Part shown: one piece after another, positions 10,807-54,188 of the stretch
How the letters are laid out: each line of letters begins with the position of its first letter
How positions within the stretch are numbered: the stretch's first letter is position 1
Assembly: GCA_903813345.2 (NCBI GenBank)
Contig: CAIIXF020000003.1
Location: 18,058,931 to 18,122,930, forward strand
Direction: 5' to 3'
From: Owenia fusiformis
Taxonomy: Eukaryota; Annelida; Polychaeta; Sabellida; Oweniidae
Length of the DNA stretch: 64,000 nt
Notes under the pieces: generated by a model
The model's input: the letters and a program-made list of their open reading frames with translations, nothing else
Databases searched by the model: none
What the model was told of the DNA's origin: nothing
Translations under genes and position numbers: made by a program

Positions 10807-12036
10807 GGGGTGCACCCCAGTTGTCCGAAACCCAGTTCTCCGAAACCCAGTTGTCCGAAACCCAGTTCTCCGAAACCAAGTTCTCCGAAACCCACTTGTC
10901 CGAAACCCAATTCTCCGAAACCCACTTGTCCGAAACCCATTACTCCGAAAAATATAGTCAGAGAAAGGGGAGACGTACTTAAGCTTAGGCCAGTTTCATG
11001 CCATGTATTTGGCCAAATTCATGGCATGGACGCATTCTGATGTTCATAGATCTCTCTCTCTCTCACTTTGAATTGCATCCATTGCACGCGTTACCAGAAT
11101 GGCAGGAAATGGGGGATTTATTTTACATTGTGATTCTAAAAAAAGGTTATCAAAACACAATATATATTACGGAACAGTTTATCTTATCTTCTTCAATCTC
11201 TCTTATATAGGCAAAATAAAATGAATCATTTTGAAACAGATAAAATAAGTTTACGCAAGCGTTGTCAAAATATTTCGTCGCATTTAATTTCTTAGTCTCT
11301 GTATTTTATCAAATCGTAAAAGTACAAAACATTCGAAACTTAATCACTTGGGATCAACTGTGAACGAAGGCAGGCTGTCCTCTCATATCAAAATGGATGT
11401 TCTCCCATTCGCAAGAAGTTTCATTTACGCCATGTAAGCCTACTCACTTCATCCTTTTAATTTAATCTCTATTTCTCGAACAGAGTACGTAAATGAAGAA
11501 TAAGTTTTGGTTTCGAAAAGATGTACATGTCAACTTTACTAAATAAATGCCCACTGGCTTGGGAAAGCTATTTTTCCTTTTATGAACGCTCATCACCCAT
11601 TGGAAAAATGTTGTTCCCTCTCAAAAAAGGCCCATGGGCCATAAAGAAAATTGGTTTAAAAATTGTAGACCCCTATGTATGTTGTGTAAACGCCATTTCA
11701 CAATGAGAATAACATAATTTAACTTTGTTTGTTTGAACATCTATATCACCTGTATATGAACTTTCGTAGGCTAAACATTAAACAATAACGTCTTAACTTC
11801 GCATATGTAGCCTAATTTTGCAATGATGTCAACGTTATTCCAATGTTATGTTGTGATTCGCAGAGGTTGCGACAACGAGATTCGTTTAAAAAAATTGTAT
11901 TTTTCAAATAAGATCCCCCTAATTTTCGGAGAACTGGGTTTCGGAAAACTGGGTTTCGGAGAACTGGGTTTCGGACAACTGGGTTTCGGAAAACTGGGTT
12001 TCGGAGAACTGGGTTTCGGACAACTGGGTTGACCCC
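10807..12036. mobile_element. Non-autonomous DNA transposon with tandem-repeat termini
   Basis: A 1230-bp element flanked by the 8-bp duplication GTTGTAAT (10799-10806 and 12037-12044). The left end starts GGGGTGCACCCCAG and the right end, reverse complemented, starts GGGGTCAACCCAG. Inside each end is an array of a 15-bp unit: about nine copies of the (A)GTT(G/C)TCCGAAACCC type at 10818-10950, and about seven inverted copies at 11927-12028. An 8-bp duplication fits hAT-like or P-like elements. No transposase is present. The two proline- or glycine-rich frames across the arrays are translations of the repeat. Confidence 0.8.
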
Positions 12037-22800: not shown

Positions 22801-25800
22801 ACACCTGCTGAAAATTTCAACTCAAATGGTTGAGAAATCTTGAAATGGCAGACCAATTCCCAGAACTTAATGATCACCCTGTATATAGTATGTTATATGA
22901 ATGCCACAGTACTGGAACTGCGTTCCATATACCTGCACTTTTCATATAAATCACTAATTAATGACGTAGTATGTCCATTCCAGGCTATTATCTATATTAA
23001 GTTAACAAAATATATTGCATGACGCAGTTAATTAGATTTATCAGTGTTTTATGTCTATTTATTGAATGTTGACTTGACAGTGATCTTCACATTACTTTTC
23101 AACCTTTTTTTATATTTTATCATAGTTACCTATTTTAAGACTAAGAAATGCAAGATTTTTGGTAATGGGCTGATTTAATCTGCAACAGTAATGGTCCACC
23201 TTAAGGTTTGGTGTTTACTTGCAGATTCAATTTGATAGAGTATCAGCCCACCTTAAGGGTGTTTGATGTTAACTTGCAGATTTTATCCGAAACAACATTA
23301 GTCCACCTTAAGGGTGTTTGATTTATATTTGAAGATTCTATTTGATACAGTATCAGTCCACCTTAAGGGTGTTCCACGTGTACTTGCAGATTCAATTTGA
23401 TATAGTATCAGCCCACCTTAAGGGTGTTTCATGTTAACGTGCACACTTTATTTGAAAAAGCATTTAGCCCACTTTAAGGGTGTTTCATGTTAACTTGCAC
23501 ATTTATTTGAAACAGCATTTAGCCCACTTTAAGGGTGTTTTATGTTTACTTGCAGGTCTTATCTGAAACAGCATTAGCCCACCTTAAGGGTGTTTTATGT
23601 TTACTTGCAGATCTTATCTGAAACAGCATTAGCCCACCTTAAGGGTGTTCTTATCTGAAACAGCATTAGCCCACCTTAAGGGTGTTTTATGTTTACTTGC
23701 AGATCTTATCTGAAACAGCATTAGCCCACCTTAAGGGTGTTTTATGTTTACTTGCAGATCTTATCTGAAACAGCATTAGCCCACCTTAAGGGTGTTTTAT
23801 GTTTACTTGCAGATCTTATCTGAAACAGCATTAGCCCACCTTAAGGGTGTTTTCATGGATGCCTTCGATGAAAATTGTGATGACAAAATTGAAATTGGGG
23901 AGGTAAGTCACATTTTCACAGTCCAAACCATATATTTCAAAAACACACTTACTGAGAATTATGGTTGGACGATTGGTTGCTTGGTTTAGATGAGACCATG
24001 TGATGTCACAGTAAAATAGTGACATCAACATATCCCATTGTCTCCCAAAGGAGAAGTCCCTCAGCTCGATGCCACTCCTCCTTCTGCCATTTACCTAGTT
24101 CCCATATCTCCTTACCTAGTTATGGCCCTGATACCTACCCTTCATTCTCGATTTTCCATCACATCTCAACCCCAACTCATTCTCCTGCTTCCGTTCAGGA
24201 AATTTGTCACATCAAAAAACAAAAAACAAAGAAAAGAAATTCTTTCCACACCAAGAATACTGATACTTCTCTGCCTACTTAAGGTAGTTCTACACTTTCA
24301 GAAAAAATTGAGAAAATAATTTGAGGAAATGTCATTGTGACAAAATTTGAACAAAATATTTTGATTTTGACAATATGTACAGGGTGATCATTTAATAAGA
24401 TCAAAAGTGCTCTAATTTTTGTAAACATTAATGAATCTGGCTCATTTTCTGACAGAATGTTGATCTAATAATCATACACACACAAATTCAATTTCATCAC
24501 GTTACATGTAACATTCTGCATTCTATGGTAACCATGGAAACCAATGTTGATGGTACACGGAAAAAATAAAATGAGCCAGATAAGAGCACTTTTGATCTTT
24601 ATGAACACCCTTTCTATCCAAATAAGGTATAATTATCCACATAAACAATTCTTAAGAACTGAAGTGTAATCAAGAGAGTATTGTAAAATATAAGTGTTCT
24701 TTGTAACATTGTAATTGCTTTAACATATTTTTTCTCTGAAATAAATTTTTTTTTAGAAAAATATCGCCTTTTTCATTAAATAATAGAAGTTGTGAAAATT
24801 ATATGAAAATACGCATCATATAGATCTACCTTAATGAGCCTACCACATACATGTGTAAGAATGTAAAACAACACAGTAATTTCACAATGTATGATTAATA
24901 CATTGAAATGCCATGGTCATGTTCTTTCATCATATTTTAGAAAGAAAGAGTCTTTTCAATTATGATGTCACCGCCAAGCAATAACTAACAGGAAATACAA
25001 GGTCTTCGATGTTGAAATAAATCACCCCGACAAAAATTTCACTTCAGAATCTATACTTATTATAATTTCCATAAAATAAGGATCAACCCAATTTGTTTAT
25101 TTCTATAGACAATTTCAATGGCATGGAGTTCCTAATATCATCAAATGTCAAATACAATGAATTTCTCCATTTTAGTTCCTTTTTTGTTTGTTTGTGATTA
25201 GATACTATGTAAGGTTTAGGTGATTTGCTGTTCCACAAGTCGATGTGATCTATATTGTGTAATCATGCATAGTGTTACATAATTGTCAGAGCAATAGATA
25301 GTCTGAAGCTTGATTACCAAATGAGTGCCTCACCAAAATGTAGCAGAAATATATCTATTTAGACATTTCAAAATACTGTAAGTTGCTTTACAATTGTAAT
25401 TTAGCACAATTTTATTTGTCGGATTGGGCAAATTTTGAAATTTTGGCTGTTATTTAATTTGGCTGTTTTACTCAATGGTAAAATGCAGATATTAGAGAGT
25501 TCATAAAAAGATACAAATAATGCTTTCGTTATTCAAAAAATACCCAGCGCAGTGGATCTAGATCTTTGAAAATAATTAAATAATGACATTTTAGTAGAGT
25601 GTTTTCAAATGTTTTTATCCCGAGGATTTATTATAAAAATAAAAATTAGCGGAGATTTAATTTGGCGATTGTCATCAATCCGCCAAATGCGCCAAATTAA
25701 AATGGCCGTCAAATTAAAGCAACTTACAATATATCAAGTTCAAGGCCCATATGCCATCTATTCTTCAACCTAAACAGCTAATTGTTGCCTACTTGCCCAA

Positions 25801-31800: not shown

Positions 31801-34800
31801 AACCTGGGCATACATGTACATGTACACTACATAACTGCATATACAGATTAGGCCATCCAAAATTAATTATATGTTGGCATTCTGATGAAGAGCCAATATT
31901 AAAAACTACAAAACCTTCATTTATTTAAAGGGTTTTATATATTATTTAAGAGTGAAAATGCAATAACACATTGTGGCAAGGCAAGTAACACACCCCTTGA
32001 GTTCAGAAGACCTTGTTATGTAGTTCATATACATGTTGTTTTTAATCAATCTTGGAACTCATTTCACTACATTATAATCCAAGATCACAATTCCCTTTGT
32101 CATTTATATACATTACAAGTAGAGAGTACATGGGAACTTTTTGTTTTTTCTGAAAACATAGAATTTAGTGACATTATTTTAAGAAAATCTTTGAATGGAC
32201 GAAGTGTTTTTCTAAATAGGGAATAAGTAGAAATTATTTTAGGCAATCCTTTGAGTGTCATGCCATTTATACATGATGCTGCCTTATATTTTATATTTTA
32301 TGATATATATTGAGAGAGGATTTCTCTGAATTATTTGTGCTTCAAATATGGGAACTGCAAATTGGCAAATAATTTTAAATTTTAGTGTACATTCAAACAT
32401 TTTATTTCAAATGCCAAATAAAATGCCATATGCCAATGGGCATTTAGTAAAAGTGACCCTATAACTATTTAGAATATGGCAAACATGTTTAGAAAACTGG
32501 TGAGAAGCAATTGAAATAAGAAAATCCATTCTTTTTGAAGTGCCCTTGAGTGCATTTAATTTCAGTCATTCTATCCTAATTGCCCATGGGCATTTAAAAT
32601 AATAATCACATCCCAACTCTTAAAACATGCTTAGGATACTGTTAGAGTCAAAAGGCAACAAGAATATTCATTTTTGAAACAAGAAAATTTAGTCCCCCTA
32701 AAAATGCCCATATTGGTATTTATTCTCAAGATTTTCAGGTAATTGCCCGTTATAATTTATCAAAAATATTTTTTATTTCCATTCACATGTCTTATTATCA
32801 GTCACAATCAAAATAAAGCCAATTACTTTCATTTCTTGGATTAGAAACAGTAAAATTTACACAAAAATAACAACTCTCAAACTTGACCTTTAAACCACCC
32901 TAGTGTCAAGGTCAAAAGTAAAAACTCTCAGAAATCACATTTTAAGTAATGAGTCATACTTCCTCTTCAATTCCATGTCAATATATACTTGTTTTGTAGG
33001 GGGGCTAAAAGAGGGGTTTACCGCCACCTGTCCTTTATAAGACTGAGCTATAATTTTATTTAGCTGGAAATATGCTTGAAACTCTTATATTTTACTCAGT
33101 TTACAAAAATACATGCCTTATTATTGCTTCATTGGTACATTTAAAATTAGATTTTCAAAAGGTATCCACGATTTTTGATAAAAAATAATGATCCTGGAGA
33201 CAATTCTCCTTTAGAGGCTGTTTGATATCGTGTATGATATAATTAATCTTCATCCCATAAAATACCAATGAAAATTAATATTTAATATTAATTTTGTAAT
33301 GGCAATAATTCTAAGATTAAAAATTTCTTTTGATCATCTATTTTGCGAGGAAAATTTTGAGTCGATGAAAATGTTTATCGTTGATGTTTTACATGCTATT
33401 CAATCAGGATGATGTTATCATGATTGTACATCTCCCGTCAGAAAAAAGTTCCAATGGTCACATTTTAAAATGGAAAATAGAGTGAAAAGGTGTGAAAACA
33501 GCAAGGAATAAAGTAAACAGGCATATAGTCAACACTCTAAATTGTATAGAAACGCTTATAAATTAGGGCGTTCATTCAAATTTTAGAGAAAAATTGTGTA
33601 GTTGGCATGACTTATTTGGAAGTTGCCGCATGGGTTCCCAATGCAAATATTAGTTCATACTACATAGGAAATTACTCCAAACAAAAGATCAGAAGATTGC
33701 TTTTTCTAGCTCATACGAAAATTAATTACTTTAAGTACATTATGTCATGCTTCAGGACATTTTTTTGTTAAAAAACGAAGCCAAATGAAATTTATTTTTC
33801 AATGCACTCACTATAACTGACAAGATAATATATGTTCTGATTCTTTCTGAAGCACTTTCCCAGTTTTTTTAAATCCTATGTTCCGCAAATGTTATGGGTC
33901 TTATAATTATTGTTGCCCTTTATACTTTTAATCGAAGTATATGCATTACGGAATACCATGGGAAATATCTGAAGTTACCTCTCTACCTCTCAGTCCCAGT
34001 AGATAAAAAATTTGACAGGTTTTACTGTAGAGTAAAAAATGGATGATATAATCTGGCATTATTCTTTTTCAGATGGCTCAAATTCTGCCTACAGAGGAAA
34101 ACTTCCTTCTGCTGTTCAGGAGAGACAACCCAGTAGAGTCTTCGGTAGAGTTTATGAGGGTAAGTAAATTAACATCCTCCTGAGCAGGTGTCCAGAATCC
34201 GTACCTCCTTCTTCCCCCTGCTATAACCAGGGGGGAAGAAGCGTTGCGACAGCCAATCAGATTGCCAGTTCTTAATCGGGGAAATGCTAACTGCTTATCA
34301 CAGGGAGTAAAAAGAAAGAATATATTCTGAATTTTGAAGCCCTGTGATCGGAGGTTGGTAAATTAATGGGAGGGAGTAAATTGGGAGGATTTTTTATAAC
34401 TTCCCTCGAGTCCTCATGCCTTAAGGCCCTCATCCTTACACAGATGCTTCAACATTGACCAAAATTATGAGTTCTTTTTAAATTATGCGAACAATTATGT
34501 ACCTGCTACATGGTGAACTTTGTATAGAGGGTTTCAAGGTTTAGCCTGTATTATCCAAATGACAAATTGGTCCCTTAAGGAGAACACCTTTATAAATATT
34601 ATCATATTACCATTACGACAAAAGTACCATTGATTTCTGAATAAAATTTAAAGGTTTTCTTGTATACTAGTATAGTGGCTCATTAGCTTGAGATGTTCCT
34701 ATGAGTATTCTGTTAAATAGTTTATGTGGCACACACGATGCTTTTAGTAGATACCCATCAGATATAACGTCTGCTTTTGTGCTGAGCATTATGGGAAATG

Positions 34801-37800
34801 GTGGATCATCAAATAATATTTTTGGGACAGAATCTCCCAGTGATTAATCTATATTATGCTATAAAAAACTACTGTTTTTTATCTATTTATAAAGATCACT
34901 AAACATATTTGCATAACAGTGATATAGAGATAGATTGATAGAGATGTATGATATTTAGTGCAAGCATTCTTTTGTATAATGTAAAAAATTCTTTATCTAA
35001 AGTTTGTATGGAATTTATATATTTTTCTTAATCTTATTCAATATAGTCTTTAAGTACTACATGCACCTTTTACTTGAACTCATCATACGATGACATTGAT
35101 TTTTTTTGAACAATGTCATATATTTTGACATATTTCCTAGATGTGAAGATCAGAATATTGATCAAATAAAGAGTATACATTTTAATAGAAAAAACTACTT
35201 TTCATATATGAACTGAATACTCTTAAAGTTTATCCGAGAAATATTTGTCTGAAGAAGCAATCGTTAACTGTGGAGTACCCCAAGGGTCTGTTCTAGGCCC
35301 CCTCCTATTTATCATATTTGTAAATGATTTCTATCTAGTTTCTGATAAACTCAAACTGGTGATTTATGCGGATGACACTAATATATTATGTAGTGATTCC
35401 AATCTTGATAATTTGACCACAACCGTAAATTCTGAACTTTGTGACATCAATGATTGGTTGTTGGCCAATAAACTCACTTTAAATGTTAAGAAAACAAAAT
35501 ACATGGTCTTTGGAAATAAAAGAAATATATCTGTGAACAATGAAATAAAAATTGCAAAATTCTAATCTTGAAAAAGTAGATGAGATAGGATTCCTGGGAG
35601 TAATTATTGATTCAAAATTATCTTGGGCTCCCCATATCAATGCTTTTCATAGAAAAGTTTCAAATGTTATAGGAATGTTATATCGAACAAATTATGCTCA
35701 TACTTTAAATTCAAAGATGATAATATATAACTCTCTGATTTTTTCTCATCTTAATTACTGTAATATTTTATGGGGAAATGCTTGTAAGAATCTATTAAAT
35801 AAACTACTGATATTGCAAAAGAAAGGACGATTCTCGGTTTGGAGAACAGTCTCCTGGGCTAATAATTTTTTCATGAAAAATATAGAAATATTACCCAAAT
35901 TAAACTATGAATATTCAAAAGAGGACATTTAGATCTACAAGATGTAAAAATAACAAATTGGTCTGAAGCAGGGATAACGCTCAATTTGACCGATTCAATA
36001 AATTACAAGTCTCGATTTGGGGAAAGAAGTTCATCAGTGTACTGCGCGAATATTTTTTTGCGAAAAATCTAGAAATATTACCCAAATTAAATTATAACTA
36101 TTCAAAAGAAGACATTCAAATCTATATTATGTAAAAAAATCAAATTTGTCCGAAGCAGGGATAATGCTCATTTAGATTGATGAACTTAGTTCTCCAAACC
36201 GAGAATCGTCCTTTGTTAGATTAATAACAAATTCAGATAGATTAGCTCAAACATTCCCAATTTTTCAAGATCTTAAAATACTTAATATTTATCATATTCA
36301 CACAATCCAAACTGTTTCATTCATGAAAAAAGTTATAAGCAAATCTGTACAGTTCCCTTCAAAATTATACGATCACTATTTCAAAACTAGAGAAAACATA
36401 CATCAACGTATAACTCGATTTGGTCATAACTTAGATATTCCTAAACATAGAACCAGAATTGGTGAAAATTCTATTAAGGTCCATGGTTCATATATATGGA
36501 ATTCCCTCAATGAAGATATTAGAAATAAACCATTAAATTCACTCATATCTCGTTTGAAAATTGACCTCTTGAGTACAGAGTAACCAAAACATTTATTTCA
36601 TTTCTTTATTGTCTCATATTATTGTATTTGTATATTGTATTTATATTATATTATTGTATTGACCTATGTACCACTTTAAATGTTCACAGTTTATCATGTT
36701 TATTGTAAATTTAATTATGGGCAGTCATACACCCCTGGGGTGTCATAGCCTGTATAATGTTGTAATTTTTGTAATGAAAACTGAAATAAATTATTTTGAA
36801 ATTGAATTGAATTGAAAAATATAATATCCGTAAAGTCAAGAACTACAAAAGACTCGTTCAATATGGGCTACTGTGTCAAAGTTGCCAGATAAGAAGTTTC
36901 ATCGAGTTTATATGCAGAAATGAAAAGAGCAATTTAGTGTTGCTTTGATAAAAAGTCGAGACAACATTCTGGCTTTGCGTATCTGATACTCAGTATAGCA
37001 CTATAATTTATATTGATAAATACAAAGCTGTAGTATCTTTAATTGCATATGTGAAAAGACTTGTAATTAGCCGGATGCTTTTCTGCAAAACTGCCATTAA
37101 GAGCAAATTCTGTCTTTCATTTAGGTATGTTGACTTATTTTTCAATGAACATTTCCATTTTGAACTTTTTGCACTTACACTTGAATAATTGAGTGATCTC
37201 ACCCGGTTCAGTAATCTTCAGGGTGTTAGTTGCTTGTTTTTTTCTGTTGTGGAAAATACCAAAATATTTCATCTTTTTGTAGGGGGGCCAACAGATTATC
37301 TACAGGGTGGCATGAACTTGTCATATTTTCAACAGAGTGGCATGAACTTGTTATATTTTCATCAGGGTGGTATGAACTTGACATATTTTCAAAACGGTGG
37401 CATGAACTTGTCATATTTTCAACAGGGTGGCATGAACTTGACATATTTTCATCAGGGTGGTATAAACTTGATTATTTTCATCAGGGTATGAACTTGTCAT
37501 ATTTTCAACTAGGTGGCATGAACTTGTCATATTTTCAACAGGGTGGAATGAACTTGACATATTTTCAACAGGGTGGCATGAACTTATCATATTTTCAATT
37601 AAGTGGCATGAACTTGTCATAGTTTCAACAGTGTGGAAAGAACTTGACATATTTTCAATAGGGTGGCATGAACTTATCATATTTTCAATAAAGTGGCATG
37701 AACTTGACATATTTTCAAAAGGGTGGCATGAACTTGTTATATTTTCAACAGGGTGGCATGAACTTGTCACATTTTCAACAGGGTGGCATGAACTTATATT

Positions 37801-40800
37801 TTCAATAGGGTGCCATGAACTTGTCATGGGGTGGCATGAACTTGTCATATTTTCAACAGGGTTACATGAACTTATATTTTCAATAGGGTGGCATGAACTT
37901 GTCACATTTTCAACAGGGTGGCATGAACTTATATTTTCAATAGGGTGCCATGAACTTGTCATGGGGTGGCATGAACTTGTCATATTTTCAACAGGGTGGC
38001 ATGAACTTATATTTTCAACAGGGTGGCATGAACTTATATTTTCAATAGGGTGCCATGAACTTGTCATGGGGTGGCATGAACTTGTCATATTTTCAACAGG
38101 GTGCCATGAACTTATATTTTCAACAGGGTGGCATAAACTTATATTTTCAACAGGGTGGCATGAACTTATATTTTCAACAGGGTGGCATGATCTTGTCATA
38201 TTCTCATGAGCATACATCACTTGGTTGCTATTATCTTTATATCAATGATTTCCCCACCAAATGCTACTTGGATATATAGAGATTATCCTATATGAGGTTC
38301 AGGATATTGGGATTATCCCGAGGCTAATATAATATATTTGCCCGAGGGCCGCAGGTCCCGAGGGAAAATATATTATATTCACTGCTACCCATCTAATTAC
38401 ACAGACGTGTCGTCGGTGTATCATGGCGGAACTTCCTCCGGGACTAGGTTTCGGTAAGATTTTTTTATTTCCCAATTTACACCTACTTATAAGTCACGTT
38501 GTGGATAATAATTTGGCTCGAAGTTAAGGAGGATAGTCTAGTTTGAGAATGTGTCGATGGTTTTAGGTTGCATATGTTAACAAAGACACAATTCACGTAT
38601 TTAGTCCCTCACTTTTCTTACACTGACGATCGGCATTAATATTGCCAATATTACACTGATATTGGTCGTTCGTCAGTGTAATTTCAAAAAGTGGTTTTTG
38701 ATAGACTTTTTGTTCCAAAATTTGTGAATTTATTTAAAACCAACTTTTAGAGGTCACTCATATCTTCTAATTAGCCACAATTCATACCAATGCATAGCAT
38801 TCATCCTCCCGTGTTTTTTGCTGAAAAAATTAAGAAAATCGGTTCATAAATAAGCGAGAAATGAACTTATCAGTGCATGAAAATGGTTCTGAGAAAAATG
38901 CATTTCAAAATTTTAGTTCTCATAGAAACCAATGGTACAATGATATCTAAAACATAATTTATTCTTCGTTTTAACCTGGTTAGACAATCAACATTGGTTT
39001 TTTATGAAAGTCTAACATATTTAGAAAAGATTGACATCGAAAAAGTTTTTGGTACCTTAGTGACATCACTAATGTTTCAAAATATTTTTGATATACTAAA
39101 ACATTGAAGTGGCCCATTAAATATGGCATTTTATTATTGAAATAGTGTGTCCTTTGTTCAACCTTTGCATTGGGGTTAAAAAGATAATCTTTTTTGAAAT
39201 GCATTAAGAAATATTTGATGATTAAGAAATTTCAACTTTTTTTGAAAAATGGCGGGAAATTTGAATATTTGAGAAATGAAATGCTCACAACTTTTTTTTC
39301 CAAAAAATTTTTTGTTCAAAAATCTCTAAAATCACTTTTTAAGTCCTGACAAATAGTAAATGAATGATAAAAAAATATTTTCAAACTTAAGACGGGGACT
39401 TTAAAGAGAAAATATGCTGTCTTTAAAATGCAAGGGGAGACATATAATGAGTATATGATGTAGTCCTTCCTGTATGGTCACTTTGACCATTCTGCCTGTG
39501 TAAGATATGTGTTCTTGATCTCCACAATCCTTTGATATTCAAAATAACATAAATAACATGGTATTAACACAGGGCTAGGAATAACTAAGGGATTACTAGT
39601 TGAACTTTAGGGACTTAACATTTTCAGACAAATATTTTTGACTACAGTTAAAGACATGAAAATGTGGAAATTTCTCCTAAAGATTTTTAGTAAAACTCTA
39701 TATTGTGAATTTCATTTGGAGAAATAACGAGATCAGTTTAAAATCGTTAACCTGATGCATGAGGAATATGAAAGGGAAAATACATGTGAGATAAATATTA
39801 TGGAAATGATAAAAAAGTTGTATAGCAAAAGTATTAATAGATTAACAGATATTGATCCAAATATACATGTGATAAATTGTACGTGCACAAATGCATATCC
39901 ATTTGGAAGATTGATTACCATCCCATATGTAATTGAAAAAAGGCATTAAATTAATGACGATACCACATATAATTAAGGCCAGGAAAAATAGTCAGGTTTG
40001 TGGATGTCGGATGGATGTCAGAACATCAGAGGCATTTTGGCTAAACAAAATGTTGTTTTCAACTTCTCAATCTTTTAAATGACTAAAAAGAAAAAACATT
40101 TTCAAAAGAAGAAAAATATATACATGAACTATGTGGGCAGGTTTAAAATATGAGACCCTGGAGACGGGAAACAATAATATTTTAATATTTTTCCTGGCCT
40201 AAGTCATATTTGATACCATAACCATACAGAATGATTGATGATTCATAAAACATTAGCTACTCTTCAAATAAAACAAATTTGTCAGCATGTCAATATTACT
40301 TCAAAACAATGTAGTAATTCAAATAATAGAAATGTTCTCGTGACTTTCTAAAAATGTTATTGTGACTTTCAATTTCAAAGGGCAGATATGTGTAACTGAT
40401 CACATATAAGTTAAAGAATTCCCATTATCTATAGGTTCTGGGGTTTTATTTAAAATGGTTTAGTGTAAATGTTATTGTGACTTTCACAGGGCAAAAATGT
40501 ATAATTGATCAATCACATATAAGTTAAAGCATTCCCATTATTCATGGCTTGTTGGGTTTTATATAAAACAGTACAGTTAAACCTGTATATCTGAACACCT
40601 GGCTAATCCAAACACCTTCCAATTTGAACACTTTTTTTCGGTCCCATTTTTTCCTCCCATTGACTCCCATGTTAAAAAAACCTTGAAATCTGAACACCTC
40701 CTAATCTGAACAGTGAACAACCAGATTTGAAAAACTGACTGACCTGTCTAATCTGAACATTTTATCAGAAATCAAATGTCTGGACATTGTTATGATAGCT

Positions 40801-43800
40801 AGGATTCAATCAGTAAATGTTTCATAATCACAAAGACAACACAGACACATTTGCAGACAAGATTATATCATGAGAAAGAGAAAAAATTCAACTTCGTAAT
40901 ATCCTATCACTAAAATGCCTCCTAAAAAGGCACATCTGACATCCTGAATGCCCTTGATATTTTGAAAGATTATGCATCATCTCGAATGAGCACTCGTGAA
41001 AAATTTATTGAAGAGGGTATCTACTCAAATATTGCTAATGCCAACAACAATGAACGACTTTTTCAAGCTAAAGTAAAGCAGTGCTATGTAACCATAATTT
41101 AATTTAATAATTTAACAAGTCATTTAATAAGCATAAGATTTCGTACAAGACTATCATATACTTATTCAGTGTATTACAAAGTTTTTGCCAAAATTAAAGA
41201 GTTATTTTTCCAAAAATAATGAAATTGTTCAAAATGTAAATAAAACATAGCATATACATGTAGGCTATAGGCCTATTGTAGAATAAACTCATCAACAACA
41301 TGTATTGTTTTCTGACTAAGTATTAAGTGTTCAATATAGTGGACTGAACAATGAAAATCCCCCCCCCCCCCCCCGACCAACAATATCCTCGAAATTTGAA
41401 CACCTGCCAATTTGAACGCTTTTGGCTGATCCCATGGGTGTTCGGATTAGACAGGTTTTACTGTATAGTTTAGATAAAAATACATAATTATATAATTTGT
41501 GATGTATAAGTTAATCATTCCCAATTATCCATAGTAAGTGGAATAGTGGGGTTTTATATAAAACATGTACATAATGTTATGTTAGTGTAACTTTAGAAAT
41601 GCAGGCATGTATAGCATAGATAGGTAAAGTTGTAATTAATATAGACTATACAGTTGTATGTTAATATAATATAGATACTATAGTACAGCAGTATGGTTTG
41701 TAGAATATGATACAATTAAAAGAGATGAAAGCGGGAAGAAAGTAATCAGAAGGGGTGTATTATGCTGCCATACTGTATAAGTGGTAATATTGCCTAATCA
41801 TTTAATTTGCCTATTGCCTAATTTTTGTCAGGTTTGGAAAATGAAATGTTAGAAATATAACTTCATAATGTTATCCAATCGGAAAATTAAAATTAGGAAA
41901 ATGATCAAATCTGACCATTCAGCAAACTAACCACTCGATTTAAATACCACTTACAGTATTAAAAGCCGGGTTGCCGTATCAACTTGAAAGTTAAATGGAT
42001 TCGAGTGAAAACTTTCACTGCGCAGAACAATCATTTTCTTATTAAAATGTTAAAGATATATACACTATAGTATATTACAGCTGTATGGTGTGTTGAATAT
42101 GATATGATATAAAATAGAGGATAAGTTATAAGAAGACATGCACTACATATATGGCCATTCATCTGCATCTACTGTCTTATAAACTGAATACAGAAAAACC
42201 TCCAAAGTTTAACACTTCTACAAATGGAACATCCCTTCGTGTTGGTCTTGGATTGTGTCATTGTTGTACTTAAATGGTGGGGTGGGGGACTTAGACACAT
42301 ATAAGTGCTTGAAATAATTTCTGGAATTTCTGGTTTCTTACTTTATTTATATAGAGTGTTTAATTTAGAGCCTAACAAAAACTCATGCTTTACTCCTTGC
42401 TAATTCCACAAGTTTCCACTATATTTTCATGGTTCTTTTCAAAACGACCACAATTTCACTTGTTTAATAGGTTCCCTATCAGTCAATGTAGAGACAGATT
42501 ATTAATTCCCTCCAGTGTTTAGACCAAGGAGGAACTAAAGTTTGTAATAACCGCATGTTTTCAATTAATCAAGCAATCTTGAAGAACTCTTGCAATATTT
42601 GTCAAGAGAAAATAATGCATTAATCTACTCGTGAACTCTGTCAAGTTTGTTGTTATGCAGTGATATGTTCATTATCGAGTCAAGATGACTAAATGCCCTC
42701 TATCTGGAGATTAAACAATGTTTTGAATGATGTAACAAGAATCAAATTTATCACTAAAAACATGACTATTGGGAAATATGGGGTGGACTGACTTTTTCCC
42801 ATCAGCCCTTAGCTCAGGATTTCATTCTGTGTTTTCATTAGCCAATGAATGATGGGAATGAATTCTCTGTTTCAAACAATCCTGTACATGACTAACCTCT
42901 GGTGGTTTAATGTATAGACACATCTCACGATGTTATTCCAAAAGTTTCAGAAGTAACTAAATTATACACATTTATATTATACTATACCGTACCGTACCGT
43001 ATTTTATCATATCGTATTATATCGTATTGTATCATATTATATTGTATCGTATTATATCATATTATATTGTATTATATCATATTATATTATATCGTATTAT
43101 ATCATATTATATTATATCGTATCATATCATAATAATTATATCGTATTATATCATATTATATTATATCGTATCATATCATAATAATTATATCGTATTATAT
43201 CATAATAATTATATTGTATTATATCATAATATATTATATCGCATTATAATATATTATATCGTATTATAATATATTATGTATAATTACATCATTATATTAT
43301 ATGATATCATATTATACATTAAATGTACATGGCATATCTTCTGTTTGCAGGTGTGGCGGCAGTTTGACAAAGACTGTAGTGGTTACATAGAAGCTGATGA
43401 ATTAAAGGTAAATATCAATGGTAATTAAATCATTAAGGTGGGCTTAGCTAGCTTTTGCCCAGGAGGTTTACTTTTCAAAAAAATCAGGGGGTTCACTTTT
43501 GACAACTTTGGCCCAAAATCACTTGAAAAGTGTATAGAATGGTAAAAACTGCATGATTTTGAAAGAATCTTTGGCAAAGAGGAGGGGGAATACTGAACCC
43601 CCCTGGCTACGGGCCTGTATGTGTATGTTAAACAAAAAGAAATTGCATAATACATCCCACTAGATTTCAACTATATAACAAAATAAATAAATAAAACTAT
43701 GACAATTTTTATTTTTAAGCATTTCTGCTTTTCTTAAAAAAAATAAAACCATTTCCTTTTCTTTATAGGCATTTCTGCGCCACTTATTAAAGGAAAATAA

Positions 43801-46800: not shown

Positions 46801-49800
46801 AATGCTGCAAGGTCAATAGTAAGTCACTCTGTCATTCTTAGCATTAATCATGTATACCTGTATCTATATCCTCATTTAAATCTCTGTTGAAATATGTTTA
46901 GTCTGAACTCGGTGAGAAAATCCTCGGTCAGAACTACATATAAGTGTGGATATCCTCAGTAAGAAAATCATCTGTCAGAAATAAGTGAGAATATCTTCAG
47001 TAAGAAAATCCTGTCAGAAATAAGGGAGAATATCCTCAGTAAGAAAATCCTCTGTCAGAAATAAGTGAGAATATCTTCAGTAAGAAAATCCTGTCAGAAA
47101 TAAGGGAGAATATCTCAGTAAGAAAATCCTCTGTCAGAAATAAGTGAAAATATCCTCAGTAAGAAAATCATCCATCAGAAATAAGTGAGAATATCCTCAG
47201 TAAGAAAATCCTCTGTCAGAAATAAGTGAGAATATCCTCGGTAAGAAAATCCTCTATCAGAAATAAGTGAGAATATCTTCACTTAGAACTCTGTGGGAAT
47301 AGCCTTAGTCACAACTCATCTCAACTCATCAGAAAAGCATTTCAGACTCACATAAATGTTCAAAACTTATTCACATTGCTGTTTTAATCTCAAGATTTGT
47401 GATGCAATACAGGGTGTCCTGAAAAAATTGAACCAAAATGAGATGAGAATAACTCTTTTTTCCTTCATCAAAAAAGTTAACCTTTTCTATGATGCTACTA
47501 GATGCGAGTAGAAATAATCTTGATTATTATCATTAAATATTCAAATTTCAGTCAAAGTGATGCCATATTTGGAATCTAGATGTAAAATTCCATCTTAAAA
47601 GATGGTTTGAAAATTGTTTATCAACTTCGAAAATTTTCTTTTTGAAAATGTGACTTCTAGTTTGGGGAGATTCCCCATAGACCCCATGTTACAAAATCAC
47701 AAAATATGAAATATCTTTTTTTGTCTTGGACAGATAACATTTCCTTTACTGGACATATTTAAATTTGTATAACTATTAGATACAAAAGTGTGATATAAAA
47801 ATTTCTCAATTAAAACAGATGTAATTTAAATTAAAGGGAACTTTCTATTATTTGGGACACCTTGTAATTACATATACACATGTGTGATCTTGTCACTTGT
47901 CAGTATAATAAATTCCATATTGCTCCCCCTCTTATCTACCCCTATCTATTGCTAAACTGAATAACTTTCCTTACCATATTTCTATATACAATAAATTAAT
48001 AATTATCTTTTTGTTTTTCAGCTCCAGTTATTTGACCAAAATAAAGATGGCAAACTCCAGCTTAGTGAAATGGCAAAGTAAGTGAAAGTGTTTTGTTTCT
48101 TATCATTTTATTAACAGAATTTATGATGGAAAAGTTGATATTCTTATGACCTATAAAATATATGGCATTATGATCAATATTCTTTTTGTTAAAAAGACTT
48201 TAATTTATACAATGTACATTAGATCTCTAAATTCATTGTACATATAACTGATGCCTATGCATGTTTATACACTGTACAAAATGCATCCTGTATAATACAG
48301 GTATATCAGAACGATTCATGAATAAAGCCAGGGGGAAAAGCAAATTTGTTAATGTTTTTTTCACAAAAAGTTTGAAATATTTGGAAATGCATTGAAATGC
48401 AGCATTTGAACAATGTAAAAACATTTTTATTTATAAATTTATTTCAATGACTGTTTCATACTGGCATTACTAGCCATGTCTTTATATATGTATTTCATAC
48501 TTACAGAGGTTCTAGGTACATAACGAGCGGGAATATATACTGTATCTAGCCAAGGCCAGGGGCGGGATGGATACACGCTGTATCCATCCAGGTCCCGCTC
48601 CTGAAATTTTTTTTCAAAAAAATTTTCACATTCTTTTTCAAAAATTTTTTTTCACATTTTTTTCACAATTTTTTTTCAAATTTTATTTTTCAAAATATGA
48701 GTTATATGAGCTTGAAAATCTCAGAAACTTAAAGAACCACTTTATAAAACCAAGAAAATGCGTATCTTAAGTATATTTTTGAATTTTGGAACTTTATAAG
48801 GTATATGACGTACCTAGAACATCAGTAGGTATGAAATACATCTGTTAAGTACGGTCGGTTTCGGATACAGGGTTTATCCCTCGGGAAATATGTGTATATC
48901 CCTCGGTCCCTGCGGTCCCTCGGGATATACACATAATTCCCTTGGGATAAAACCTGTTTCCAAAACCTCCCAGTACATAACCCTTATATATTAAACTGAC
49001 ATATGATATAAATAATATAAATAGATCAAAGATACAATAAAATATTTCTGACAAACCTTCATACCCCCTTTTTGGGGATAGCTTTGTTAACAATGATGCA
49101 AACTGAAAAAATAGCACCCCCTTGACAATTGCTGGCTAGGCCCCTGAGATTGATATGGTTATGAGTCAATGAAAGATAAATGTATATATGGATTTTCAAG
49201 TCTAAACAATTAGTTCAATTACATTCTGCAAAGTTTATTAGAATGATCATTTTACAACATTGAATGTCCTGAGATCGATAACTGATTCCAGTTTAATAAG
49301 GTCATCCAAGGAAATCTTTGCACAAGAATGGTTCTGAACTTTGGAAATTTCATTATAACAGCATATTACAGATTCATTCATTAATACAGAAAAAGCAATT
49401 GTCTACTGTCATGACATCTATATGTCGATACATCTTTGACTTTTAAGAGCAGCTTAGAGCTTTTTTGAATTAAAATAACCACATTTCCGATCCGGTTTTG
49501 GCAACACAGCCTAATAATGCAGCAAAACATATAACTAGTTGACCTAACAATATTGAAAAATAGATTTGTTTAATTGCATTATTATATCTTTGTAGATTTT
49601 GTATTTTGACAGGACAAAACATTAACTTCTAATCTTCCCGGTTGACTAAATATCAGAGATTGCATTTCCGACTTTTATATCAAATTTTGTCTTTTTCAGA
49701 CTTCTTCCAGTTCGTGAAAACTTCCTTTGTAGACCTATATTTAAGGTATGCCCTTATATAGGAGTAAGTACTTTATTTATAATTTTATATGGATCTATAC

Positions 49801-52800: not shown

Positions 52801-54188
52801 GACTTTGAAGCCCACAATATGCCTGCAAATTGATTTCACAAGCAAACACGTCTTAGATTTATCCTTCTGGACCTACTTTAATTTAACTGTTGCATGGCTT
52901 GATTCTTACAATTTAGATAACTTTCTTTAATATAATAATGAATGTATTAATATTGTAAAGAGGAAGAGGTCCGGGAATATCTAATACCTTATGTTTCAGG
53001 GATCCTATATTTTATCTCAAAAAGACCTTACCCTTTAAGTATATGAAATCAAATGATGTATTCCCAATTTTATACAACTTTTTAATTTAAAGTCAAAGTG
53101 ACCTCTATTAAAAATAGAGATTACAAATCTGAATCTGTTTTGCTTTTTCTAAACTTACATGTATTTTCTGTATAGTTTTCTCAACATGTATTTCTTCTCT
53201 TATACTTAAAGAATCAGGATGTATTACATTTTCTTTTACTTCAACAATGCACTCATTAAAACTAAAAGGCATTATACCAAATGCAATTTTTAAATTTCAA
53301 ACTAATATGAATGTTAAACACCTACATTTCCTTTATTACAATGTGCTTTAATATAATGAGTATGACATCTCTCCAGCATTGGAACAAGTCTTTTGCACTC
53401 TCTTGATGGATATTGTCTGAGGAGAAAACCAGACATAAAAATCTGTATATCCGAACACCTCTCTTATATGAACACCTCTTAATGTGAACACTTTTTTCAG
53501 TCCCATTATTCAATCTCATAAACACTAAAAACCATGCAATGCACATCTGCCAGTCCAAATACTTTGATTCTGCAAGGAATACTGAACAAAATATATTTTT
53601 TCAGGGTGCCAGGATTACACGTAAAGACATAGATAGAGTGTTTGCCCTATATGATGTAGATAACAATGGTACTATTGAAAATGATGAACTAAATGGGTTC
53701 CTCAAAGACCTTCTATCCCTTGTCAATCAGGTTAGTGTTGAAGGCTAGACCACTCATATTCTTGCTAGAAGAGCCCTTCAGGCTTCGTAGAATATCACTT
53801 GTGAAAGATGCACAGGTATTCACCTCAAGAGAATTAAATATTTGCATAATATTTCAATCTGAATCATCATATAGAAAAATATCCATACAGATTTTTTCAA
53901 TTGAAATTATGATGGTGAAGTCTAATATAACTTATCTACCTGGCATTTGCATCACCTTCATCTATTTTAGGCATTTTAGCACAGAATTATATCTAAAGAA
54001 ATGTAAAAATTTACTTACTTTTTGTTTTCCAGGACTATGATAATGATGATATAGACTTTATGAAAAGTGCCATTTTGGATAAATGGGACCTCAACCACGA
54101 TGGAAAAATCAGTCGGGATGAATTGAGTATGCTGCTCCTTCAGCAGGGCAGAATGTCTTTGGGACTGGAAGATGAAGAGAATGAATAA
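19747..54188 (+). CDS. SCGN: Secretagogin-like EF-hand calcium-binding protein (spliced)
   Basis: A calcium sensor of the calbindin D28k/calretinin/secretagogin family, cytosolic, with no signal peptide or membrane segment. Coding exons: 19747-19806, 23813-23902, 34073-34159, 43351-43407, 43769-43852, 48022-48077, 49700-49745, 53605-53730, 54033-54188. All have AG/GT borders and compatible phases (all 0 except the 48077/49700 junction). The model is ~253 residues. Five EF loops lie at about 39-50, 85-96, 131-142, 177-188 and 221-232, four with Asp1, Gly6 and Glu12; the first has Asp in place of Gly6. The blocks [16 protein letters not shown] and EYTGTM match vertebrate secretagogin better than calbindin, from memory. 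Vertebrate secretagogin is ~276 residues with six EF-hands. The first hand is missing here, so either an exon was missed in the first intron, or exon 1 is wrong, or it was lost. An in-frame ATG at 19732 would add five residues. Confidence 0.85.
19807..21809. other. Intron 1, left part
   Basis: Searched by eye for the missing first EF-hand exon (a phase-0 exon of about 90-120 bp with a D-x-D-x-x-G-x-I pattern). None was found. No other feature is supported. Confidence 0.5.
21810..22881 (+). mobile_element. Decayed mariner-like transposon
   Basis: A 1072-bp element with ends CAGGGTGATCACTAAGTTCT and, reverse complemented, CAGGGTGATCATTAAGTTCT. It sits in a TATA context, consistent with a TA target. 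A transposase remnant at about 22190-22420 contains [15 protein letters not shown] and a later KHYMRGHKF in another frame, resembling the C-terminal half of mariner transposases. Frameshifts and lost N-terminal coding make it inactive. Confidence 0.8.
22882..23189. other. Intron 1, spacer
   Basis: AT-rich, no feature seen. Confidence 0.45.
23190..23855 (+). repeat. 55-bp minisatellite built on the exon 2 splice acceptor
   Basis: Thirteen imperfect units, counted by the block CCCACCTTAAGGGTG near 23198, 23248, 23303, 23359, 23414, 23469, 23523, 23578, 23634, 23671, 23726, 23781 and 23836. Each complete unit holds intron end (TTTATGTTTACTTGCAG) plus the first ~40 bases of exon 2 (ATCTTATCTGAAACAGCATT and on). 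The last unit is the true exon. Units nearest the exon are almost identical; those farther upstream are diverged, some having lost the AG. One unit (near 23650) is shortened. Confidence 0.92.
23813..23902 (+). CDS. SCGN: EF-hand gene, coding exon 2
   Basis: Thirty codons, phase 0 at both ends, donor GTAAGT. Encodes a helix and the loop [12 protein letters not shown], matching the second EF-hand of secretagogin. Position 6 of the loop is Asp, not Gly, so calcium affinity may be reduced. Its first ~40 bases belong to the upstream minisatellite. Confidence 0.88.
24380..24612. mobile_element. Mariner-type MITE
   Basis: The left end is CAGGGTGATCATTTAATAAG after TA. The right end, reverse complemented, is AAAGGGTGTTCATAAAGATC. 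Both continue into ATCAAAAGTGCTC. ~233 bp, non-coding. Confidence 0.65.
24613..25376. other. Intron 2, spacer
   Basis: No feature supported. Confidence 0.45.
25377..25729. mobile_element. Small inverted-repeat element (MITE)
   Basis: ~353 bp. The left end reads TGTAAGTTGCTTTACAATTG and the right end, reverse complemented, TGTAAGTTGCTTTAATTTG. The interior near the right end has repeated 'GCCAAATTAAA' blocks. Non-coding. Confidence 0.65.
25870..25925. promoter_or_regulatory. Intronic CCAAT/CRE motif cluster 1
   Basis: CGCTGATTGGTC (an inverted CCAAT box) is followed by ATGACGTCATC, a perfect CRE/ATF palindrome at 25904-25911. CpG is locally raised. This could be an enhancer or alternative promoter of the EF-hand gene, or the end of an unrecognised transposon. 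Confidence 0.35.
25930..27020. other. Intron 2, spacer
   Basis: No gene or repeat supported. Confidence 0.45.
27021..27255. promoter_or_regulatory. Intronic CpG-richer CCAAT/CRE/GC-box cluster 2
   Basis: Contains CCAAT (27027-27031), a TATATA-like stretch (~27064), TGACGTCA (27083-27090), inverted CCAAT in CTGATTGGTGG (~27168-27176) and a GC box GGGGGCGGGG (27241-27250). It is much richer in CpG than the rest of the intron. Inferred alternative promoter or enhancer. Confidence 0.4.
27816..27968 (+). repeat. 33-bp minisatellite, left part
   Basis: About five units of AGATTAGAAAAGTGTTCACA then TCTTGACATGTAC. The array is interrupted at 27968 by a transposon and continues at 31114-31170. Confidence 0.85.
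28745..29671. mobile_element. Tandem dimer of a hAT-like MITE
   Basis: Two head-to-tail copies (28745-29215 and 29224-29671) of an element ending TAGTGTTGTCGCGATGTGCC / ATCGCGACAACACTA, separated by 8 bp (CCTATTAT). The pair is flanked by a single 8-bp duplication GTGGAAAC (28737-28744 and 29672-29679). The first copy's left end has a small substitution (TAGTACATTGTCGCGAT). Subterminal 'ACATCGATGCATCG' motifs are repeated. Short frames here are not genes. Confidence 0.88.
29975..31042 (+). mobile_element. Mariner-like element, deleted
   Basis: 1068 bp with ends CGAGGGTTGTCCCAGAAGTA and the matching inverted end, TA on both sides (29973-29974, 31043-31044). A weak transposase-like stretch near 30460-30690 is full of stops. 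The ends are related to those of 55477-56538. Confidence 0.82.
31114..31170 (+). repeat. 33-bp minisatellite, right part
   Basis: Continuation of the 27816-27968 array after the insertion: GATTAGAAAAGTGTTCACAT then CTTGACATGTAC, with a final truncated unit. Confidence 0.8.
31171..34072. other. Intron 2, right part
   Basis: Almost 2.9 kb of AT-rich sequence with no supported element. A motif around 'GCCCATGGGCATTTAAA' recurs loosely at 32.4-32.7 kb. 'TTTGACAGGTTTTACTGTA' near 34011 looks like a single pogo-family end. Confidence 0.45.
34073..34159 (+). CDS. SCGN: EF-hand gene, coding exon 3
   Basis: Twenty-nine codons, phase 0, acceptor TTCTTTTTCAG, donor GTAAGT. Encodes the linker with [13 protein letters not shown] and SSVEFM, a family signature between the second and third EF-hands. 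A small inverted-repeat element begins 13 bp after the donor site. Confidence 0.93.
34173..34354 (+). mobile_element. MITE, 'CAGGTGTCCAGAATCCG' family, copy 1
   Basis: Starts CATCCTCCTGAGCAGGTGTC and ends GTGATCGGAGG. The same sequence in inverted orientation lies at 52533-52781. It is a shortened copy: a middle segment of the other copy is missing. Confidence 0.7.
35229..36800 (+). pseudogene. Broken non-LTR retrotransposon (LINE) reverse transcriptase, 3' part
   Basis: Reverse transcriptase remnant of jockey/CR1 type. 35245-35562 encodes [16 protein letters not shown] and YADDTN motifs. A frameshift near 35555 moves to the next frame, which has [12 protein letters not shown]. At 35821 the reading is cut by a 393-bp DNA element. 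Coding resumes after 36214 through VRLIT, FMKKV and [12 protein letters not shown] to a stop at 36581-36583. A non-coding tail with AATAAA and ATTGA repeats ends near 36800. The 5' part (endonuclease, first RT motifs) is absent, typical of 5'-truncated LINE copies. Confidence 0.88.
35822..36214. mobile_element. MITE, 'TCTCGGTTTGGA' family, inserted in the LINE
   Basis: 393 bp with perfect 26-bp inverted ends beginning AAAGGACGATTCTCGGTTTG. It disrupts the LINE frame, so it is younger. The interior includes two related blocks ('AAATATTACCCAAATTAAA') and shares sequence with 16871-17176. No transposase. Confidence 0.9.
36801..37297. other. Intron 3, spacer
   Basis: No feature supported. Confidence 0.45.
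37298..38205 (+). repeat. 30-bp minisatellite, ~30 copies
   Basis: The unit is GGTGGCATGAACTTGTCATA then TTTTCAACAG, with variants including a shortened form lacking 'GTCATA'. Because 30 is divisible by three and the unit lacks stops in several frames, it produces long repetitive frames on both strands, including a 269-codon one on the minus strand. No start context, splice link or domain supports a protein. Confidence 0.92.
38306..38395. mobile_element. Hairpin element 1
   Basis: Arms AATATAATATATTT and AAAATATATTATATT surround a GC-rich core with CCCGAGGGCCGCAGGTCCCG, which would fold into a strong hairpin. Related cores occur at 48855-48975. Likely a foldback element. Confidence 0.6.
38423..38453 (+). 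other. Candidate orphan first exon
   Basis: ATGGCGGAACTTCCTCCGGG leads into a 31-nt open segment encoding [10 protein letters not shown] and a donor GTAAGA. It sits in a CpG-richer patch (GACGTGTCGTCGGTG just upstream). It could be an alternative or unrelated start exon, or a captured fragment. No downstream exon was found, and its phase 1 end does not fit exon 4, which starts in phase 0. Confidence 0.3.
38618..38681. repeat. Short foldback repeat
   Basis: TTACACTGACGA and its inverted match TCGTCAGTGTAA flank 'TTAATATTGCCAATATTACA'. A ~64-bp palindrome-like element. Confidence 0.6.
38682..40571. other. Intron 3, spacer
   Basis: No supported gene. A 64-codon frame at 39755-39949 looks protein-like but has no recognised motif. 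Near 40380-40560 a ~100-bp block with 'CACATATAAGTTAAAG' occurs twice. Confidence 0.4.
40574..41463. mobile_element. Pogo/Tigger-like element, non-functional
   Basis: 890 bp with ends CAGTTAAACCTGTATATCTG and, reverse complemented, CAGTAAAACCTGTCTAATCC, between TA dinucleotides (40572-40573 and 41464-41465). The subterminal 'TGAACACCT' repeats are typical of this family. A short coding-like remnant near 40950-41095 ([12 protein letters not shown]) may derive from a transposase or host gene. A poly-C run lies at about 41359-41374. Confidence 0.75.
41466..42978. other. Intron 3, spacer
   Basis: AT-rich, no feature supported. Confidence 0.45.
42979..43315. repeat. AT-rich microsatellite before exon 4
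   Basis: Begins with ACCGT pentamers, then long runs of TATCGTATTA/TATCATATTA. It ends about 35 bp before the exon 4 acceptor. The Tyr/Ile-rich frame is a translation of this repeat. Confidence 0.9.
43351..43407 (+). CDS. SCGN: EF-hand gene, coding exon 4
   Basis: Nineteen codons, phase 0, acceptor CTTCTGTTTGCAG, donor GTAAAT. Encodes VWRQF and the canonical loop [12 protein letters not shown]. Confidence 0.94.
43438..43617. mobile_element. MITE, 'GGCTACGGGCCTG' family, left-truncated
   Basis: Right end CCCCCTGGCTACGGGCCTG and interior 'AACTGCATGATTTTGAAAGA' match the complete copy at 58837-59022. The left inverted end is not recognisable. It lies 30 bp after exon 4. Confidence 0.7.
43769..43852 (+). 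CDS. SCGN: EF-hand gene, coding exon 5
   Basis: Twenty-eight codons, phase 0, acceptor TTCTTTATAG, donor GTAAGT. Encodes the exit helix AFLRHLLKE and the linker ending EYTGTM, a secretagogin-like signature. Confidence 0.93.
43921..43980. repeat. Relic of the TACCGTATTCTCT element
   Basis: TACCGTATTCTCTCTAATTG then GTGCAC resembles the terminal motif of the 265-1048 element. The partner end was not found. Confidence 0.4.
43981..46162. other. Intron 5, left part
   Basis: Over 2 kb with no supported feature. Confidence 0.45.
46163..46321. mobile_element. Pogo-type MITE
   Basis: 159 bp with ends CAGTGAAACCTGTCCCAGTG and, reverse complemented, CAGTGAAACCTATAAAGAGG. The interior shares 'GGGACTC' and 'GTGTTC' blocks with 54833-55010, in the opposite orientation. 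Confidence 0.7.
46900..47300 (+). repeat. 41-bp minisatellite
   Basis: About nine units of AGAATATCCTCAGTAAGAAA then ATCCTCTGTCAGAAATAAGTG, with small deletions. Non-coding, within intron 5. Confidence 0.88.
47410..47864. mobile_element. Mariner-type MITE
   Basis: 455 bp with ends CAGGGTGTCCTGAAAAAATT and, reverse complemented, CAAGGTGTCCCAAATAATAG, and TA at both sides. Non-coding. Confidence 0.7.
48022..48077 (+). CDS. SCGN: EF-hand gene, coding exon 6
   Basis: 56 nt ending in phase 2; acceptor TTTGTTTTTCAG, donor GTAAGT. Encodes LQLF, the canonical loop [12 protein letters not shown] and MA. The split Lys codon is completed by exon 7. Confidence 0.93.
48078..48510. other. Intron 6, left part
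   Basis: No supported feature. Confidence 0.45.
48511..48640. repeat. Hairpin element 2
   Basis: GCGGGATGGATACACGCTGT is followed by ATCCATCCAGGTCCCGC, so a strong stem can form at about 48561-48597, then a T-rich stretch. It looks like the hairpin elements at 38306 and 48855 in style but not clearly in sequence. Confidence 0.45.
48850..48975. mobile_element. Hairpin element 3 with inverted ends
   Basis: Outer arms GGATACAGGGTTTATCCCTC and the inverted match GGGATAAAACCTGTTTCC. Inner arms ATATGTGTATATCCC and GGGATATACACATA surround TCGGTCCCTGCGGTCCCTC. A foldback MITE of ~126 bp. Frames here are not coding. Confidence 0.7.
48976..49699. other. Intron 6, right part
   Basis: No supported feature. 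Confidence 0.45.
49700..49745 (+). CDS. SCGN: EF-hand gene, coding exon 7
   Basis: 46 nt starting with the last base of a split codon; acceptor GTCTTTTTCAG, donor GTATGC. Encodes [15 protein letters not shown], the linker after the third loop that matches LxxxENFLLxF of the family. The Cys-Arg-Pro insertion is unlike the usual hydrophobic run. Confidence 0.88.
50053..50290. mobile_element. Element with tandem-repeat inverted ends (small)
   Basis: The left half has GGTC(T/C)GAATCC(C)A repeats (about 50053-50130). The right half has the same in inverse (GGATTTAGACCATT repeats, 50218-50272), ending GTGGGGCAACCCCAC. The design resembles 10807-12036 but the unit sequence is different. Confidence 0.5.
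50714..51213. mobile_element. Mariner-type MITE
   Basis: The left end CAGGGTGTCCCAAAAAATGT and a short right end ACCCTG, both next to TA. A further CAGGGTATCATGAAAAAGAT motif at 50932 suggests a second, internal end. Non-coding. Confidence 0.55.
51214..52532. other. Intron 7, middle part
   Basis: AT-rich; no feature supported. Confidence 0.45.
52533..52781 (-). mobile_element. MITE, 'CAGGTGTCCAGAATCCG' family, copy 2
   Basis: ~249 bp with ends ATCCTCCGATCAC and GCGTCGGAGGATG. Inverted relative to 34173-34354, and longer in the middle. Shared blocks include CACAGGGCTTCAAAATCCAG and ACGGATTCTGGACACCTGC. Confidence 0.75.
52782..53604. other. Intron 7, right part
   Basis: Contains a fragment of the pogo-type family at about 53445-53510 ('CTGTATATCCGAACACCTCT'). 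No complete element or gene was seen. Confidence 0.5.
53605..53730 (+). CDS. SCGN: EF-hand gene, coding exon 8
   Basis: Forty-two codons, phase 0, acceptor TTTTTTCAG, donor GTTAGT. Encodes an EF-hand with the canonical loop [12 protein letters not shown] and the exit helix [14 protein letters not shown]. Confidence 0.94.
54033..54188 (+). CDS. SCGN: EF-hand gene, last coding exon
   Basis: Fifty-one codons plus TAA; acceptor TTGTTTTCCAG. Encodes the last EF-hand, loop [12 protein letters not shown], and an acidic tail LGLEDEENE. The LGL near the end recalls the C-terminus of vertebrate secretagogin, followed here by a few extra acidic residues. Confidence 0.95.
   Translation, partial: DYDNDDIDFMKSAILDKWDLNHDGKISRDELSMLLLQQGRMSLGLEDEENE

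Follow-up and report, generated by a model that had tools for sequence, protein, structure and literature searches.

A minisatellite composed of a 3' splice site and the start of a coding exon in an EF-hand gene of Owenia fusiformis

The stretch of DNA analysed (64,000 nucleotides of contig CAIIXF020000003.1, referred to below as the window; G+C content 33%) carries exons of an EF-hand gene (table 1) which, judged by its homology, is of the secretagogin/calbindin type. The peptide joined across three introns gave colinear matches to secretagogin (6jlh, 7.9e-37) and calbindin (2f33, 2.5e-34) and also matched Pfam EF-hand models, in agreement with the original prediction of an EF-hand gene. The exons located, which do not account for the whole gene, were the one that adjoins the repeat array described below, five more in the window and one upstream. 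The array exon is flanked by introns of about 25.4 and 10.2 kb. It had been numbered exon 2, but the upstream exon (locus L018, donor at window position -1581) precedes it, and since that exon starts inside the first EF loop, a further one probably lies before it. The array exon aligns with secretagogin from its seventh residue, its first six residues being weakly conserved, and its start has four extra residues relative to that alignment. Its 30-amino-acid peptide alone had no match in PDB, and in the genome (E up to 10) it matched only itself. A search of the window against Rfam gave nothing over the gathering scores.

Table 1. Positions of the array, its splice sites, the exons of the EF-hand gene and a second array of the same kind (window positions unless a locus is named).
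Feature	Position	Strand	Basis or remark
Array units 1-7, older, acceptors partly decayed	23173..23555	+	78-93% identity to unit 12
Array units 8-12, young	23556..23812	+	98-100% identity; unit 9 missing 18 bp that include its acceptor
Unit 13, first 41 nt of coding exon	23813..23853	+	sequence identity and homology
True 3' splice site (predicted), ACTTGCAG	23805..23812	+	open frame and homology
Decoy acceptor, ACTTGCAG	23217..23224	+	same sequence as true 3' splice site
Six further ACTTGCAG decoys	ends 23279, 23389, 23555, 23610, 23702, 23757	+	identical sequence
Coding exon of 90 nt, phase 0/0, GAG then donor GTAAGT at 23903	23813..23902	+	open frame and homology
Next identified exon, same gene (...VEFMR)	34073..34159	+	ends read by hand from junctions
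Exon, same gene	43351..43407	+	ends read by hand
Exon, same gene, last codon split	48022..48077	+	ends read by hand
Exon, same gene (GARITRKD...VNQ)	53605..53730	+	ends read by hand
Last coding exon with stop (DYDNDD...EDEENE*)	54034..54188	+	ends read by hand
Second mirage, last exon of ARFGEF-type gene	L011:511-821 (G000 C11:28587300-28588700)	-	63-bp units end in acceptor and exon start

The array had been described from the sequence as thirteen 55-bp units made of a splice acceptor and the start of a coding exon, and this description was borne out, the last unit being the true site with its 41 nt of exon. Thirteen units lie head to tail, and nine of the 12 spacings are exactly 55 bp (in order 52, 55, 55, 55, 56, 55, 55, 55, 37, 55, 55 and 55, the 37-bp unit being unit 9). 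Tandem Repeats Finder reported two rows with a 55-bp period, one of 7.9 copies (83%) and one of 3.7 copies (100%). The bounds originally given, 23190-23902, needed adjustment, as the array starts slightly earlier, at about 23173, and the repeat ends at 23853 within the exon, leaving 23854-23902 as exon outside the repeat. When the region of the true acceptor was compared with the 600 nt upstream, the score was 91, against 18 for the best among 100 shuffles; across the 12 edges of the six EF-hand gene exons in the window, the acceptor at 23813 was the only one to beat every shuffle in this local-duplication test.

With gaps left out, identity to unit 12 was 78–85% in units 1-6, 93% in unit 7, 98% in units 8 and 10, and 100% in units 9, 11 and 13, so that the predicted contrast between almost identical units near the exon (98–100% in units 8-13) and decayed distant ones (units 1-6) was recovered. 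In the old units (23173-23555), CCACCTTAAGGGTGTTT had changed in 3 of 119 cells compared with 60 of 266 elsewhere (p = 0.011 in a permutation test that ignores the relatedness of the units).

The sequence TTGCAG is present at eight of the 12 unit junctions, i.e. at seven decoys and the true site, which accords with the original count of at least seven units. The remaining junctions comprise one with TTGAAG, two without AG (GTGCAC and TTGCAC) and one that is deleted, so that the acceptor has been lost or altered at four of the 11 decoy junctions (two AG lost, one deleted, one altered). The local identity claimed for decoys and true site also held: the nearest decoy matches the true site exactly across 109 nt on the upstream side and 41 nt on the downstream side, and for the second-nearest the figures are 54 and 41 nt. 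Given this identity to its nearest decoy, the true acceptor cannot be chosen on the basis of nearby sequence, and the choice must depend on donor distance, transcription order, or features deeper in the exon.

Translation from ten upstream sites, eight of which still have AG, met a stop in all ten cases, after 10–21 codons and 79–636 nt before the donor of the exon. From the nearest decoy, the original prediction had expected 18 codons, a frame shift and then TGA; the shift and the stop were found, and the same event reads 21 codons before the TGA. By a simple consensus score, no donor-like site other than the true donor was present in 23190-23910. Whether RNA structure hides the decoys was also considered, and the result was unconvincing (fold of 23173-23902, z = -1.67, with two of 20 shuffles folding equally well or better).

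Arrays of this anatomy have been described in amphioxus as mirages, a term that is reportedly credited to Canestro 2002. The available text of two reports names Adh3, the globins BflGb6 and BflGb9, troponin C and PGBD5 (PMC3087553, PMC3902484), troponin C and PGBD5 being additions of the latter (PMC3902484), and describes minisatellite-like tandem duplications across an intron/exon boundary which, as far as that text goes, do not disturb regular splicing. The window array shares this organisation. Each of its head-to-tail units contains an intron end and an exon start, its terminal unit coincides with what open frame, donor and homology indicate to be the authentic boundary of a coding exon, and splice signals are kept in many but not all units, as is reported for the amphioxus mirages. 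In BflGb6, as described, the unit likewise consists of the 3' end of an intron and the 5' part of exon 2 (PMC3087553). Undisturbed regular splicing, a unit number that differs between haplotypes and somatic instability are also listed as features of the class.

The window array differs from the amphioxus mirages in lying in an annelid, in a secretagogin/calbindin-type EF-hand gene, and in having 13 units of 55 bp. Moreover, the copy within the functional exon does not differ from the neighbouring units; in BflGb6, by contrast, the boundary of the cluster is described as excluded from homogenisation (PMC3087553). A host outside the cephalochordates is a matter of the range of the class and not of its structure. 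In the genome, three matches over the cut-off, one with an internal stop, were obtained for the C-terminal domain of the erythrocruorin linker, a domain family that to our knowledge is annelid-specific. In the part of the open-licence literature that the searches covered, no report of acceptor-side mirages outside the cephalochordates was found. Within that literature, the window array appears, by its sequence, to be a new case of the known mirage class outside lancelets.

Two other systems are comparable in part. In human IFI6 (6-16) a minisatellite at an exon edge also has repeated splice sites, and two of its repeat units are reported to serve as donors (Turri 1995 as cited in PMC4526556). 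That case is on the donor side, with use of the repeated sites reported in the citing text, while the window array is on the acceptor side and its decoys are predicted only. Intron gain by tandem genomic duplication, as outlined in the literature available, similarly involves the duplication of intragenic sequence that carries splice signals, but the window array lies in an existing intron and no new intron is evident.

The mirage class recurs in this genome, with a frequency that is poorly measured. A genome search (498.3 Mb in 525 contigs) with the 14-mer AGCCCACCTTAAGG gave 14 matches at four loci and led to the second array in table 1, which has about 4.9 copies of a 63-bp unit at 98%. The host was assigned to the ARFGEF type by a match to Pfam BIG2_C (28.3 bits, cut-off 27); against PDB, the only match of its peptide was weak (E 0.017) and to another protein. 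Six acceptor-like upstream sites were found in this array, five giving open in-frame extensions and one a stop.

Edge duplications were also searched for at 55 loci, consisting of 30 of 121 RRM matches, with overlap among several of the loci, and 25 of 153 Ras matches, of which 13 of the 25 were nearly full-length unspliced matches whose edges are mostly not splice sites; the RRM and Ras matches listed were all on C1-C12. Four of the 110 edges tested scored above all of their 100 or 200 shuffles, three of them by the preset margin. At the start of L041, an RRM gene which we take to resemble hnRNP Q/R, a 54-bp two-copy duplication (1412-1517) contains an acceptor and exon start, and its upstream copy is decayed; this appears to be a single old duplication with the same anatomy as the window array. 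The end of L029 differs from a mirage in being a tandem whole-exon duplication (1480-1940), in which a donor-like GT follows each of two RRM-coding stretches. The end of L072 has decayed copies at a donor-like edge (1740-1890) beside a Ras-family match with internal stops, and is possibly a donor-side mirage. The fourth edge, the end of L022, was below the margin (15 against 13).

The genome is rich in minisatellites. Arrays with a period of at least 10 and a span of at least 100 make up 13% of the window, and the corresponding figure for the RRM loci is 3.5% (span at least 60, overlaps counted twice). The Owenia fusiformis genome is reported, in the available text, to have 505.8 Mb in 12 chromosome-scale scaffolds with 43% repeats (PMC9977687). 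At 13%, randomly placed exon edges would be expected, very roughly, to lie in arrays in one or two cases out of 12, and thus an overlap of array and exon is not astonishing as such. The notable point is that the repeat unit would take in a working splice site together with coding sequence.

A special core CCTTAAGG driving the arrays was considered and rejected. In these searches, where the figures count matches and not arrays, tandem triplets of CCTTAAGG gave 78 matches and the reversed pattern GGAATTCC one, but control palindromes reached comparable counts (CCAATTGG 49, reversal GGTTAACC 30; CCATATGG 87, reversal GGTATACC 6), which indicates that the motif is not special. The 11-mer CCACCTTAAGG, common to several unrelated arrays, gave 195 matches as opposed to 97 for its reversed control, and four more arrays were read among the matches listed.

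Several other repeats were observed. At L016:230-620 a 38-bp array stops some 20 bp short of an acceptor-like site and an open coding frame, and on its far side there is a fragment resembling the adjoining exon (GAGGCCAGGGATA). In the window, two 15-bp arrays (10816-10950 and 11924-12030), about 1 kb apart, are mutual reverse complements (CCCAGTTCTCCGAAA and TTTCGGAGAACTGGG); a 30-bp array of about 32 copies (37295-38206) has open frames on both strands; and perfect 42-bp inverted repeats (55475-55516 and 56499-56540), also about 1 kb apart, resemble the ends of a small DNA transposon. Long open frames at 3714-8234 on the reverse strand and around 61857 on the forward strand are presumably Ty3/gypsy-like retroelements.

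We consider it probable that the window array is a mirage, i.e. a mostly neutral minisatellite born from the exon border, with its newest units beside the exon and splicing at 23813. It would have been seeded when 55 bp around the 3' splice site, comprising the last 14 nt of the intron and the first 41 nt of the exon, were duplicated in tandem, and later growth by slippage or unequal exchange would have left the newest units adjoining the exon. The identity gradient toward the exon would fit ongoing duplication, and the array is probably still growing; alternatively, the near-identity of the units close to the exon could reflect homogenisation of the array's 3' half and not growth there. The true acceptor would win by exon definition, the exon being recognised across its 90 nt with an advantage for the acceptor nearest the sole donor, and splicing at 23813 is expected because both flanking introns are long. 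In the available text of one study, long flanking introns favour the splice sites that lie closest to each other across the exon; among competing acceptors, upstream sites are preferred overall, and this preference is reduced but not reversed in the long-intron class (PMC9225289). As the upstream preference is merely reduced, some use of the decoys is to be expected, and any such use would leak into early-stop transcripts removed by decay, i.e. wasted transcript.

The early stops and the local identity of the nearest decoys to the true site would also suit a regulatory role, in which regulated decoy use leads to nonsense-mediated decay at a level set by unit number. Such tuning of expression, proposed in the original prediction, is possible but was left unsupported, and we regard it as unlikely: with four of 11 decoy acceptors lost or altered there is no sign that decoys are kept, the loss of some of them in older units would argue against a retained regulatory role, and the amphioxus mirages are, in the text available, reported to splice regularly (PMC3087553, PMC3902484). 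In this array, loss through neutral decay would look the same as loss under weak selection against decoys. About equally improbable is that units are now and then taken up as exon sequence, the array thereby supplying exon segments, length variants or new introns. This was proposed for the amphioxus globins in the part of that report available (PMC3087553), and in the ARFGEF array five of six acceptor-like upstream sites would extend the protein in frame with no stop; in the window array, however, every translated upstream site runs into a stop, and the simple score detected no donor-like site inside the array.

The direction of events also bears on the interpretation. The exon start might have been captured from a pre-existing minisatellite, and not the reverse, given that with about 13% of the window in arrays, arrays beside exons should be common, and that conservation is weak over the exon's first six residues. 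This is very unlikely, as the secretagogin alignment holds from the seventh residue on and the repeat identity stops within the exon while the EF-hand continues. Since the exon and its neighbours are colinear with the secretagogin and calbindin chains, the exon start is likely to be ancestral, with the upstream units derived from it. An artefact of assembly or a wrong number of units is hardly to be expected either. Tandem arrays are hard to assemble, but the older units have unit-specific changes and one unit has a deletion, the same anatomy is found at the ARFGEF-type gene, and a genome search with the array tract, which skips common words, returned the window itself as the single match.

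A wider proposal may be put forward, which we hold tentatively and think rather doubtful: mirages would occur genome-wide at acceptor and donor edges, and the coding exon would join the turnover of the array, so that a minisatellite can rewrite coding sequence. Were this true, in arrays whose unit is open and divisible by three, such as the 63-bp ARFGEF array, the length of the protein could be set by how many units are present, and each locus would be a natural test of the choice among locally identical acceptors. Mirage loci, if frequent, would be ready-made experiments in exon definition that also show the growth of arrays at exon borders where the coding sequence is constrained. Mirages outside lancelets would make the class a general by-product of minisatellite-rich genomes.
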